DNA of 44,280 nt from Rhizomicrobium sp. Its GTDB lineage: Bacteria; Pseudomonadota; Alphaproteobacteria; Micropepsales; Micropepsaceae. The stretch covers positions 1 to 44,280 of the forward strand of contig JARLIR010000103.1 in NCBI GenBank assembly GCA_031291635.1, in the 5' to 3' direction. Positions 14,744-19,362 of the stretch are shown in pieces. The notes below the pieces were generated by a model. That model ran no database searches. It was not told where the DNA came from and worked only from the letters and a program-made list of their open reading frames with translations. A program made the position numbers and the translations under genes. The first letter of the stretch is position 1, and every line of letters begins with the position of its first letter.

Positions 14744-15280
14744 TCAATTGCGGCGCCGCTTTACAAAATGGCCAAGCACAGCGGCCAGCGTGAGGAGAAC
14801 ACCTACCGCAATTCCCAGCCACTTGCCGGCGGTGGCTTCCAGAGCGAAGGAAGCCAGAAGATTGCTCGGCGATTGGTTCAGCATCGAGAGCGACAATGCA
14901 TTCTCGATGGCATCACACAGAGCCGCGCCAATGGGAAAGAGCGTCAGACGGCTCAGCAGCGCCCGCAAGCTGCCACGCGCCGGGGCGAAGCGGTCGATCG
15001 CCGCCAGGGAACCGAAGAACAGGGCCGCGCCATAGAGCGGCATGAAAAGGTAATCGAGGCCCAGGATAAAGCCAGCCAGGGCCGCTTTGGGCTGGCTCAA
15101 CCAGTGATCGATGATCACCCGCAAACCGTAGCCCGTGCTCACGAACTGCAAATCAGCGGTGGCGAAGCCCGTACGCGCCTTGAGCACACTCTCCAAAATG
15201 AGCATAACGATCAGCATCAGGACGGCGCCCGCGCTCGTCCACGCCCAATAAGCATTCAGGGATTTTCTGCTAAGCTGCAT
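14744..15280 (-). CDS. Integral membrane hypothetical protein
   Basis: MQLSRKSLNAYWAWTSAGAVLMLIVMLIL; about four hydrophobic segments; GGAGGG SD upstream of ATG at 15280. Confidence 0.6.
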   Translation of the reverse strand: MQLSRKSLNAYWAWTSAGAVLMLIVMLILESVLKARTGFATADLQFVSTGYGLRVIIDHWLSQPKAALAGFILGLDYLFMPLYGAALFFGSLAAIDRFAPARGSLRALLSRLTLFPIGAALCDAIENALSLSMLNQSPSNLLASFALEATAGKWLGIAVGVLLTLAAVLGHFVKRRRN

Positions 15281-15305
15281 GACGATTTCCCTCCGGCACA
15301 GGTCT

Positions 15306-15926
15306 ATGCGCACGTTTCTTGATCGCTTGTACAACTTTCATTGGCTTTGCGAAGGCGACGCGGCACGTTCGTCGCAGGCTTTTTTCGGCGGGTTGGAGCT
15401 TTTGCTGCGCCGCCACGGTCTCAAAGCTATCGTCAATCTGCGCGGCGAGAACGCCGATCTGTCCTGGTGGCGCTACGAGCGCGCGGTTTGCGCCCGCCTC
15501 GGGGCCCGGCACATCGACGCCATGATGGATTCGCGCCATCTTCCGACCCGCGCCATGCTGACGACGCTGTTGGACGCCTTCGAGACTGCACCACGGCCGT
15601 TCTTGCTCAAATGCTCAGGCGGCCATGACCGCACAGCTTTAGCAGCGGCGCTCTTTATCATTGCGCGTGATGGCTGGAGAGCGCTGGAAAGCGCCGAGCA
15701 ACAGTTCGATGCGGCGATCTATGGTCATAAACCCAAGCGGTATCAGCATTGGCTGAAACCCTTCCTGCGGTTCGCGGCCGAAGATGCCAAAGGCGTGAAG
15801 CTCAGCGATTGGATTCGCGATTGCTACGATCCGAACCTGTTTGCGGCTTGGCTTGAGGACCACGACCTCAACGAAAGCCACAAAGGCATCTTCACAAAAC
15901 CAACGCGCAGTCCGTTTCAACTTTAG
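15306..15926 (+). CDS. Protein-tyrosine/dual-specificity phosphatase-like protein
   Basis: CX5R P-loop LLKCSGGHDRTALAAALFII and upstream KAIVNLRGENADLSWW; alternative upstream start at 15279. Confidence 0.7.
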   Translation: MRTFLDRLYNFHWLCEGDAARSSQAFFGGLELLLRRHGLKAIVNLRGENADLSWWRYERAVCARLGARHIDAMMDSRHLPTRAMLTTLLDAFETAPRPFLLKCSGGHDRTALAAALFIIARDGWRALESAEQQFDAAIYGHKPKRYQHWLKPFLRFAAEDAKGVKLSDWIRDCYDPNLFAAWLEDHDLNESHKGIFTKPTRSPFQL

Positions 15927-15940
15927 AAATTCCACTCTGT

Positions 15941-15979
15941 AGAAAAACAGACGCCCGGCTGGGGGGCCAACCGGGCGTC
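15941..15979 (-). terminator. Intrinsic terminator (minus-strand orientation)
   Basis: Minus strand GACGCCCGGTT-GGCCCCCC-AGCCGGGCGTC followed by TGTTTTTCT. Confidence 0.75.
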
Positions 15980-16090
15980 GTTTGCGCCGTTACGCGCGAG
16001 TGCCGGGAGGGGATGACCGACACTGCTTGTGAAGAGGTGTCCAGCTTGCGAGCGGGGGGCAGTGCGTGCCGGACGACGTCTCTTCACAAC
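15941..16090 (-). ncRNA. Candidate small RNA of about 150 nt with C-rich loops
   Basis: Minus strand: TTGAAA-N17-TATCTT promoter, predicted TSS near 16087-16090, 10-bp hairpin TTGTGAAGAG/CTCTTCACAA, C-rich tracts, then the intrinsic terminator. No convincing coding potential. Confidence 0.5.
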
Positions 16091-16093
16091 AAG

Positions 16094-16122
16094 AAGATAT
16101 GCAAATTGGCCACAGTTTTCAA
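16094..16122 (-). promoter_or_regulatory. Sigma70-like promoter for the candidate sRNA
   Basis: -35 TTGAAA (16117-16122), exact 17-nt spacer, -10 TATCTT (16094-16099) on the minus strand. Confidence 0.45.
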
Positions 16123-16193
16123 GTATTTTCTGTGCAGAGCATCTGTATAACAATTTATGAATGGACAGTGTCCATTACGCCACGATGCCATAA

Positions 16194-16847
16194 TCAGCGG
16201 TTTACTGCGCCCAATCGCCGATCAACTTGATGTTGCCATGCCTCTGACAATGCAGGCGTCTGCTTAATTCGTTGCAACAATGCGCGATCAGCTGTTTTGG
16301 CGAAGACAGCACTGAAGGCTTCTTGGACTGAAGGCGCATCAGCGCGAACGATACGCGTGAGCGCACCTGTTGTTGGCGCAGTACCCTCTTTCACAACACG
16401 GAAATACCAACCACAGCGCCCCGAGAGTGTCATGGCCAGTGGAAGATCGGCTCTACCGGTGTAGATCGCGAGTTTAAAGCACGGTGCGCGCGGCTGGCAG
16501 ACTTCAACAATGACGTCGCCCCATGCAAAGCGGTCGCCGATATACACATTTGCTTCATCGAGATCGCCGAGCGTCAGATTCTCGCCAAACAAACCGGCAC
16601 GGCAAAGGAGTTGTTTTTCTTTTTCCCACCACGGCCAGTTGCGCGCAGGATAGGCATAGACGGCCTTGTCGACACCGCCATGGTTTTCGAGATCGGCTTG
16701 GCCATCGCCGTGAATGCCGGTAGCAGTGACGATGACCGTCTTGCTGATCACGGGCTGTTTGTCGAAGCCGGAGAGCACTGCTGCGCCATGCCATTTGCCG
16801 ATGATCTTGGGCATCCCGACATTGAGGGAAAGCAGCGTCGCCGTCAT
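16194..16847 (-). CDS. MOSC domain protein (YiiM-like)
   Basis: GIHGDGQADLENHGGVDKAVYAYP, AGLFGENLTLGDLDEANVYIGDRFAWGDVIVEVCQPRAPCFKL. Confidence 0.9.
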   Translation of the reverse strand: MTATLLSLNVGMPKIIGKWHGAAVLSGFDKQPVISKTVIVTATGIHGDGQADLENHGGVDKAVYAYPARNWPWWEKEKQLLCRAGLFGENLTLGDLDEANVYIGDRFAWGDVIVEVCQPRAPCFKLAIYTGRADLPLAMTLSGRCGWYFRVVKEGTAPTTGALTRIVRADAPSVQEAFSAVFAKTADRALLQRIKQTPALSEAWQHQVDRRLGAVNR

Positions 16848-17593
16848 GCCAGCCTCCGCTTAGCAAGGGCTGCAGCAAAGGCCTGCCAAATCGCGCGCGA
16901 GACGAGATCCTCGCTCCAGTGCCATTCGGGATGCCATTGCAGTCCAAGCAAGAAGCCCTTGGGCTCGATGAGCGAAACCGCTTCGATCTGACCGTCCGTG
17001 GCATGAGCTTCGACACGCAAAGACGGCGCTAAGCGATCGATGCCTTGGCCGTGCAGCGAATTGACGGTGAACCGCGTCTTACCTGTCAGCTCAGCCAGCA
17101 GGCCGCCAGGGGTCACGATCACGTCATGCGCCAGGCTCCATTGCACCTCGCGTGGGGCATTCGCCTTTTCACGATGATCAATACGGCCAGGCAGTTCCTG
17201 CACATGCTGATGCAGCGTGCCGCCCAGCGCGACGTTCAGTTCCTGCATGCCGCGGCAGACGCAAACCGTGGGCAGGCCCGCCGCCACGGCGGCCTTGATG
17301 AGCGGAATGCACAGCGCATCGCGGTCACGGTCTTCCCACTTGGGTTCTCGTGCGGGCGCTCCACCATAAAGCTCGGGATGCACATTGGAAGGCGAGCCGG
17401 TGAACAACAGTCCGTCCATGGCCGAGAGGATATCAGTGCAATCCAGCGGCGGATCGAGCACCGGGATCAAAAGCGGCAAGGCCTCGATGCCATCGCGCAC
17501 CACCGAGACGTATTGCTGCAAGACCAGATGAGCAGAGTCTTCCTCAATAACACGGCGGTCACAGACAAGGCCGACAACGGGACGCTGGTGCAT
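16844..17593 (-). CDS. Class I glutamine amidotransferase, gamma-glutamyl-GABA hydrolase-like
   Basis: GLLFTGSPSNVHPELYG, nucleophile VCVCRGMQELNVALGGTLHQHVQEL, GLQWHPEW; ATGA overlap with the MOSC gene. Confidence 0.88.
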   Translation of the reverse strand: MHQRPVVGLVCDRRVIEEDSAHLVLQQYVSVVRDGIEALPLLIPVLDPPLDCTDILSAMDGLLFTGSPSNVHPELYGGAPAREPKWEDRDRDALCIPLIKAAVAAGLPTVCVCRGMQELNVALGGTLHQHVQELPGRIDHREKANAPREVQWSLAHDVIVTPGGLLAELTGKTRFTVNSLHGQGIDRLAPSLRVEAHATDGQIEAVSLIEPKGFLLGLQWHPEWHWSEDLVSRAIWQAFAAALAKRRLA

Positions 17594-17598
17594 GGCCG

Positions 17599-18246
17599 TC
17601 AGTTCCTTGACTTGGTACCAACCGCTGCTTTGGTCTCGCGCAGCACGAACAGCGCCTCGCTTATAGCTGTGCCGGATTGCAGGTTGCGCATCGCCACGGT
17701 GGTGGGCAGACCTTGATCATCGATAATCGTCCACTGCCGCAGTTCGAGTGGGCTATCGGAAAAGGTGATGATGATATTGGGCTTGAGGCGGTTCTTGGCG
17801 GTACGAGCCTCGACCACAATGGTGCCTGCGGTATGCTGCACGCTGAGGATGGCGCTGTTGTGCAAGAGATCGATCTTATCGCCCAAGATAAGGTCGAGTG
17901 GCGTGTCGGTCAGCGGGTAGCGGTCCACTGTTTTCATCTTGCTGTTGAAAACCGCCACGATGTGTCCGTCGGAGACGACCAGAAGCGGGCTCGGCGGTTG
18001 GTATTCGAAGCGCAAGCGGCCAGGCTTCAGAAGAAAGAAACGGCCCTGGTCGAGCTGACCACTGGGCCCGATCTGGCTGAAATCGCCTTCCAACGAGCGC
18101 AACCCGTTCAAATAGGTTCCGACCTTTGCGAGCGCCACGCGGCCTTCTTGGGAAAACTCGATTTGACGGGCAGGCGGCGCCTGACCAGCCCCTAAAGCAG
18201 CGGCGGTAACGGCAACCAGAACCAGAATTTTGGCGATGCGGCGCAT
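17599..18246 (-). CDS. Outer-membrane lipoprotein carrier LolA-like protein
   Basis: Signal peptide, then YLNGLRSLEGDFSQIGPSGQLDQGRFFLLKPGRLRFEYQPPSPLLVVSDGHIVAVFNSKMKTVDRYPL. Confidence 0.85.
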   Translation of the reverse strand: MRRIAKILVLVAVTAAALGAGQAPPARQIEFSQEGRVALAKVGTYLNGLRSLEGDFSQIGPSGQLDQGRFFLLKPGRLRFEYQPPSPLLVVSDGHIVAVFNSKMKTVDRYPLTDTPLDLILGDKIDLLHNSAILSVQHTAGTIVVEARTAKNRLKPNIIITFSDSPLELRQWTIIDDQGLPTTVAMRNLQSGTAISEALFVLRETKAAVGTKSRN

Positions 18247-18357
18247 CCCTTGGTCATAGCCTTCGAAAGTGGCGGAAGGAAGAGGCAGGCGATAATCTGG
18301 TAGGGCAAAGCGCAGCCGCGGCGATAAACTGCCGCGACTCATCCTCAAGGATCCCCC

Positions 18358-19362
18358 ATGTCCACGTCCCTCAGCTATGACACCATCGGCGTGATTGGAG
18401 CTGGCGCCTGGGGAACCTCGCTGGCGCTGACGGCCGCCCGTGCCGGGCGCAACGTCAAGCTGTGGGCGCGCGAGACCGAGGTGGTCGACGCCATCGCCGC
18501 GCGCCGCCAAAACAGCCTTTTCCTGCCTGGTGTCGCCCTGCCCGAAACCATCAAGGCGACAAGCGATCTGGGTGCGGTGGTAGCTGGCGCAGGAGCATTG
18601 CTAATTGTCCCCCCAGCGCAACATTTGCGCTCCACCTTGCTGGCCGTTGCGGCGGTGGCGGCAAAGGGCACGCCCCTGGTGGTTTGCGCCAAAGGCATTG
18701 AGCGCGGCACCGGGAAGCTTGTCACCGAGGTTCTTGCCGAAGCCGCGGACGGCTTTGCGCCTGCCATCCTCTCGGGCCCCTCCTTCGCACGCGATTCTGC
18801 TTTGGGCCTGCCCACGGCCGTGACCATAGCCGCAGAGATGGATATTGCCCTGCGTTTGCAGGCGAGCCTCAGCCATTCGACCTTCCGCCCCTATGCCAGC
18901 GATGATCTGGTCGGCGTAGCGCTGGGAGGCGCGGCCAAGAACGTCTATGCCATCGCTTGCGGTATCGTGGACGGCATGGGGCTCGGCGAAAGCGCCCGCG
19001 CGGCGCTGCTTGCCCGCAGCTTTGCCGAACTCTCGCGCCTTGGGGGGGCGCTGGGCGCCCGCGCCGAAACGCTCATGGGGCTAGCAGGTCTGGGCGATCT
19101 GGTGCTGACGGCAACCAGCCCCACCTCGCGCAATTTCCATTTCGGCCAAGAGGTGGGACGGGGTAAAGCGCTTGCCGCGCTGCGCGTGCCTGGACAACCC
19201 CTCGCCGAAGGTGTCGAAACGGCACCGGCCCTGGTAACACGCGCCCGGGCCGAACACATTGAACTGCCGATCGCCGAAACGATGGCGGCGGTCCTGGATG
19301 GAAGCCTGCCGCTGGACGGCGCCATAATGCGGCTGATGAGCCGTCCCCTCAAACCCGAATAA
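18358..19362 (+). CDS. gpsA: Glycerol-3-phosphate dehydrogenase [NAD(P)+]
   Basis: IGVIGAGAWGTSLALTAARAGRNVKLWARE, AKGIERGTGKLVTEVL, SGPSFARDSALGLPTAVTIA, GLAGLGDLVLTATSPTSRNFHFG. Confidence 0.96.
   Translation: MSTSLSYDTIGVIGAGAWGTSLALTAARAGRNVKLWARETEVVDAIAARRQNSLFLPGVALPETIKATSDLGAVVAGAGALLIVPPAQHLRSTLLAVAAVAAKGTPLVVCAKGIERGTGKLVTEVLAEAADGFAPAILSGPSFARDSALGLPTAVTIAAEMDIALRLQASLSHSTFRPYASDDLVGVALGGAAKNVYAIACGIVDGMGLGESARAALLARSFAELSRLGGALGARAETLMGLAGLGDLVLTATSPTSRNFHFGQEVGRGKALAALRVPGQPLAEGVETAPALVTRARAEHIELPIAETMAAVLDGSLPLDGAIMRLMSRPLKPE

Follow-up and report, generated by a model that had tools for sequence, protein, structure and literature searches.

The 44,280-nucleotide stretch of Rhizomicrobium sp. 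DNA analyzed here (the window) carries on its minus strand a small RNA (sRNA) gene that is probably a stand-alone, trans-acting regulator orthologous to Caulobacter RusT. Comparative sequence analysis confirmed that the gene is real and strongly conserved, with C-rich loops. An earlier note on this DNA had called it a candidate new sRNA; it is indeed absent from Rfam, but its gene order and a reciprocal match between covariance models point to likely membership in the RusT family. The RNA is not wholly new, and probably belongs to the family of a known sRNA that was apparently unrecognized outside its first family and that is present here as a two-loop variant.

RusT (CCNA_R0199) of C. crescentus is a 118-nt RNA with four stem-loops, encoded between lolA and xth (PMC11005374). 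The seed, located in stem-loop 2, spans nt 45-57 and has C53 as its key position, and the RNA is Hfq-dependent, with Hfq bound at stem-loop 3 (PMC11005374). RusT is repressed by NtrX, induced by iron starvation, and represses TonB-dependent receptors and ompW, while homologs have been reported from Caulobacteraceae only (PMC11005374).

The sRNA Gene and Its Promoter

Features in the window, with the evidence for each in brackets:

15941..16087, minus strand: RusT-like sRNA gene, ~147 nt (R1 match, fold z score, covariation; start inferred from the -10 box)
16027..16089, minus strand: hairpin 1, the long 5' hairpin (fold, alignment, covariation)
16048..16065, minus strand: loop of hairpin 1, GCACUGCCCCCCGCUCGC, near-invariant (loops of relatives)
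15996..16026, minus strand: hairpin 2, counterpart of RusT stem-loop 2 (fold, covariation, lolA-xth RNAs)
16006..16014, minus strand: loop of hairpin 2, AUCCCCUCC, proposed seed, complement of GGAGGGGAU (near-invariant in the families read)
15984..15997, minus strand: hairpin 3, GCGCGUAACGGCGC, GCGC-N-GCGC, at the position of the Hfq-binding stem-loop of RusT (alignment, covariation)
15941..15979, minus strand: intrinsic terminator with C-rich loop and U tract (terminator stem 15979-15950, covariation)
16094..16122, minus strand: promoter TTGAAA-N17-TATCTT (TTGAAA 16122-16117, TATCTT 16099-16094)
16161..16169, minus strand: upstream element ACTGTCCAT, candidate regulator site, ~40-45 nt 5' of the -35 box (alignment)
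16194-16847: MOSC gene, directly upstream of the RNA, between it and lolA
16844-17593: C26 peptidase gene, between lolA and the RNA
17599..18510, minus strand: lolA (PF03548), syntenic marker, two genes upstream of the RNA
15279-15926, plus strand: phosphatase-like gene, convergent with the RNA (PTP-NADK match weak, below cut-off)

Covariance model R1 matches the window at 15941-16093 with 153 bits. The RNA folds at -75.8 kcal/mol compared to -50.7 +/- 3.7 for shuffled sequences (z -6.8) into four stem-loops, the last of which is the intrinsic terminator; in this fold the loop of hairpin 2 reads UCAUCCCCUCC. The promoter, C-tract and terminator elements described in the earlier note were all found where it had placed them. 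Conservation and covariation lend strong support to its view of a stand-alone sRNA gene that has a promoter and terminator of its own and whose loops are C-rich and anti-Shine-Dalgarno-like. The stems and C tracts, on whose presence in relatives that note had staked its proposal, are clearly conserved. The three C tracts are not equal. CCCCCC at 16059-16054 lies in a hairpin loop, as described, and is conserved; CCCCUCCC at 16012-16005 is also correctly located and conserved, but sits in the loop of hairpin 2 and not in a linker; CCCCCC at 15966-15961 is in the terminator loop but varies among relatives, so that only the first two tracts are near-invariant. A protein-coding reading was rejected: the spacings from loop to loop take all three values modulo 3, the runs of C6, C7 or C8 shift the frame, and an ORF common to the relatives is absent.

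Within 1.3 kb, TTGAAA-N17-TATCTT is the only sigma-70-like site (shuffled sequences average 0.5). It is preceded immediately by an A-rich tract, and the alignment shows conserved blocks at TGTGGC (16114-16109) and TGCATA (16103-16098). The pattern TTGMAA...TGTKGC-N5-TGCATA occurs in 6 of 21 genomes, once per genome and solely at the RNA locus. The promoter may also be read as sigma-32-like. Read-through from the MOSC gene is unlikely to be the sole source of the RNA, since relatives keep the dedicated promoter but differ in the gene that lies upstream. The upstream element reads ACTGTCAT in most relatives, and this block, conserved in the genus, may be a regulator site, with NtrX as one candidate. 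In Parvularculaceae, GTCACAGGCAAGCTTTTTTT is found at a similar position. A Pho-box reading of the CTGTCAT element is not supported, because the second half-site, where visible, lies 14 nt away and not 11.

Conservation and Covariation

Among 61 relatives, a DNA search recovered the RNA in 32, and R1 detected one strong copy each in 59 of the 60 genus genomes as well as full-length matches with the same loops in many other families, at least seven. Named carriers include Rhizomicrobium electricum, whose RNA shares 89.5% identity with the window RNA, Marinicaulis flavus and other Parvularculaceae. Throughout the alignment the stems vary and the loops are constant. Double changes occur at 17 of 33 base pairs within the genus, and at 26 of 33 as compensatory changes among 43 sequences, in which 96.8% of cells are paired. 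Double-compensated cells number 235 in these sequences versus 63 in shuffles, in an alignment that was fitted to R1 and so leans towards the structure; neither any of the 500 shuffles nor any slid register approaches the observed covariation.

Outside the genus both loops are kept with few exceptions, loop 1 as GC-N2-UGCCCCCC(C)(C)GCU-N-GC and loop 2 as AUCCCCUCC. The C run of loop 1 is C7 in 88, C6 in 21 and C8 in 10 of 119 sequences, the window having C6. Shorter RNAs with a UCCCCUG-like loop, several of them lolA-linked, were seen at five loci (L058, L062, L064, L067, L257); they contain a GGCUCC/GGAGC mini-hairpin and a C6 loop in the terminator, and probably belong to the same family as divergent members.

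Linkage to lolA and Probable Relationship to RusT

The genes upstream of the RNA differ within the genus (MOSC, C26 peptidase, aminotransferase or lolA), and those downstream are convergent (phosphatase-like or AlkB). In many relatives the RNA and the phosphatase-like gene are separated by an AlkB gene. Across families, 72 of 126 loci, many of them with short flanks, have lolA upstream of the RNA and on its strand; in others an aminotransferase gene separates lolA from the RNA, or lolA lies beyond the sequenced stretch examined. All but one of the lolA matches near the RNA are upstream on its strand. Class-wide matches of less than 50 bits show the same linkage, a pattern noticed in the lists before counting: among the matches listed, and with genomes without a listed lolA left out, 20 of 33 are downstream of lolA on the same strand within 10 kb, with a chance expectation of ~0.001 each.

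RusT was compared through its published description and through family f63 as a proxy, whose identification as Caulobacteraceae rests on gene order. In this sample of 60 genomes from 22 genera, more than 20 have the order lolA-RNA-xth, which is the published position of RusT. The lolA-xth RNAs have CGG...AUCCCC(U)CC in stem-loop 2 in common; in one of them (L340) the shared motif falls at ~nt 42-55, counted by hand from the likely start, which fits the RusT seed. One (L350) folds into four stem-loops, and three others do so less clearly. Model R3, built from the lolA-xth RNAs alone, finds the window RNA with 44.2 bits (E 4e-10; next best 17.2) and also recognizes most other members of the family. 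In the opposite direction, model R2 scores most f63 lolA-xth RNAs at only 24-43 bits, partly via the GC-rich terminator and in a range that overlaps the background outside the class (up to 34 bits).

Like RusT, the window RNA is encoded downstream of lolA on the same strand, has four stem-loops of which the last is an intrinsic terminator, and has in stem-loop 2 a conserved seed loop, AUCCCCUCC, that it shares with the lolA-xth RNAs; homology in sequence was found with the lolA-RNA-xth family as proxy. Unlike RusT, it measures ~147 and not 118 nt and is separated from lolA by two other genes; its hairpin 1 is long and bears a C6-8 loop that is not conserved in the lolA-xth group.

Alternatively, an unrelated C-rich sRNA might occupy a similar place, its anti-Shine-Dalgarno loop and GC-rich terminator being convergent with those of RusT. 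C-rich seeds have arisen several times (GsrN, 6C/B11, aR8), and hairpin 1 is not conserved between the two groups. However, both groups lie on the same strand and the same side of lolA, the order lolA-RNA-DUFx-xth at locus L302 is intermediate between the two arrangements, and R2 and R3 each recognize the RNAs of the other with the loop aligned. We regard convergence as unlikely and orthology to RusT as the better reading.

In other families, a conserved protein of ~200 aa without a Pfam match (LDALGFP...ESLDW...RLFExGRWPxGxxGxxFNIF; L166, L045, L049, L066, L302) is encoded 3' of the RNA on the same strand at 60 loci. That the RNA is a cis-acting leader or attenuator of this gene would suit the position of the gene, which in all 60 placed cases is downstream and has the same orientation, and the terminator in which the RNA ends, as attenuators do. 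Yet the protein was not found in the three genus genomes tested, including that of the window (82% complete), and the next gene is convergent in the window (phosphatase-like or AlkB in the genus), which leaves no downstream ORF to control although loops and stems are kept. An attenuator is therefore very improbable, and a trans-acting RNA of the RusT family remains preferred.

Proposed Mechanism and Significance

As an ortholog of RusT, the RNA would be transcribed from ~16087 and would bind Hfq by means of hairpin 3 together with the U tail, whereas AUCCCCUCC of hairpin 2 and UGCCCCCC of hairpin 1, being exposed, would pair with the G-rich Shine-Dalgarno or start regions of mRNAs. The targets would probably be outer-membrane transporter mRNAs, the translation of which would be blocked. 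Control by iron and NtrX is predicted by analogy with RusT. An hfq gene is present in the genus, although none was found in the assembly that contains the window (82% complete). Among 294 start regions predicted from crude gene calls, complements of loop 2 of at least 6 nt are 3.4-fold commoner than in gene bodies; permuted C-rich loops match start regions equally well, and the data therefore fit a generic anti-Shine-Dalgarno seed without proving it or its specificity.

In the window's branch, the C-rich loop of hairpin 1 equals the seed in conservation, but in the lolA-xth branch it is not conserved. This pattern suggests that the loop is an additional interaction site specific to the lineage, much as mycobacterial B11 has two loops. 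More broadly, and as a proposal of somewhat less than even probability, the lolA-linked RNA could be an ancient, class-wide core sRNA of the Alphaproteobacteria, with RusT as one member. In the Rhizomicrobium-like and Parvularculaceae-like branches it would then carry two C-rich seeds, independent of each other and both near-invariant, and would act as a two-seed regulator whose second regulon is unstudied. Alternatively, the RNA might sequester a protein that binds C tracts or structure and not pair with mRNAs. Loop 1 is conserved far outside its C tract (GC..UGCCCCCC.GCU.GC), beyond the needs of a generic anti-Shine-Dalgarno seed, but no riboregulator of the C-tract-binding kind is known to us from these bacteria and the characterized counterpart, RusT, pairs with mRNAs via stem-loop 2. 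Sequestration is very improbable.

RusT is not in Rfam, and is linked here to a covarying family across many alphaproteobacterial families, with AUCCCCUCC as the general loop and the C7 loop as the lineage-specific one. A broadly conserved envelope or iron sRNA thereby becomes testable in other organisms, and the alignments supplied can be used for building a family model.

Comparison With Other Known sRNAs

A literature search for sRNAs in Rhizomicrobium found nothing relevant. The Rfam search recommended in the earlier note gave no match to the window RNA at the gathering threshold, with P15, 6C and aR14 below it. Like the window RNA, 6C/B11 (RF01066; 20.4 bits, gathering 47) has two hairpins with C-rich loops, but it comes from Actinobacteria, another phylum, and differs in architecture; repression by the B11 loops depends on a G tract in the leader of a target (PMC10470900). 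aR14 (RF02344; 16.6 bits, gathering 58.8) is alphaproteobacterial and has C-rich anti-Shine-Dalgarno loops, including one in the terminator hairpin, but its loop is CCUCCUCCC in place of AUCCCCUCC. Membership in either family was rejected. The Caulobacter sRNAs aR8/SisA-D (PMC12559287) are also alphaproteobacterial, and aR8 has an anti-Shine-Dalgarno 10-mer; unlike the window RNA, its seed UUUCCUCCCU is single-stranded and the gene is linked to a formylglutamate amidohydrolase gene, not to lolA. The exposed C-rich loop of Caulobacter GsrN pairs with G-rich mRNA leaders (PMC5869019), but GsrN has a sigma-EcfG promoter and is linked to genes of the general stress response, whereas a search for such a promoter (GGAAC-N16/17-CGTT) found no GGAAC within 273 nt upstream of the window RNA.

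P15 of Pseudomonas (RF00627) gave the best sub-threshold score (22.7 bits, gathering 70) and was rejected, the resemblance being traced mainly to the terminator. Outside the class, R2 matches reached at most 34 bits, and five of the six that were read are P15 in Pseudomonas-like genomes. Pseudomonas P15 (L260-L264) and the family of the window RNA have a very similar terminator hairpin (CCCCCGGYCGGCC-CCCGRCCGGGGG), which leads to false resemblance in covariance searches.
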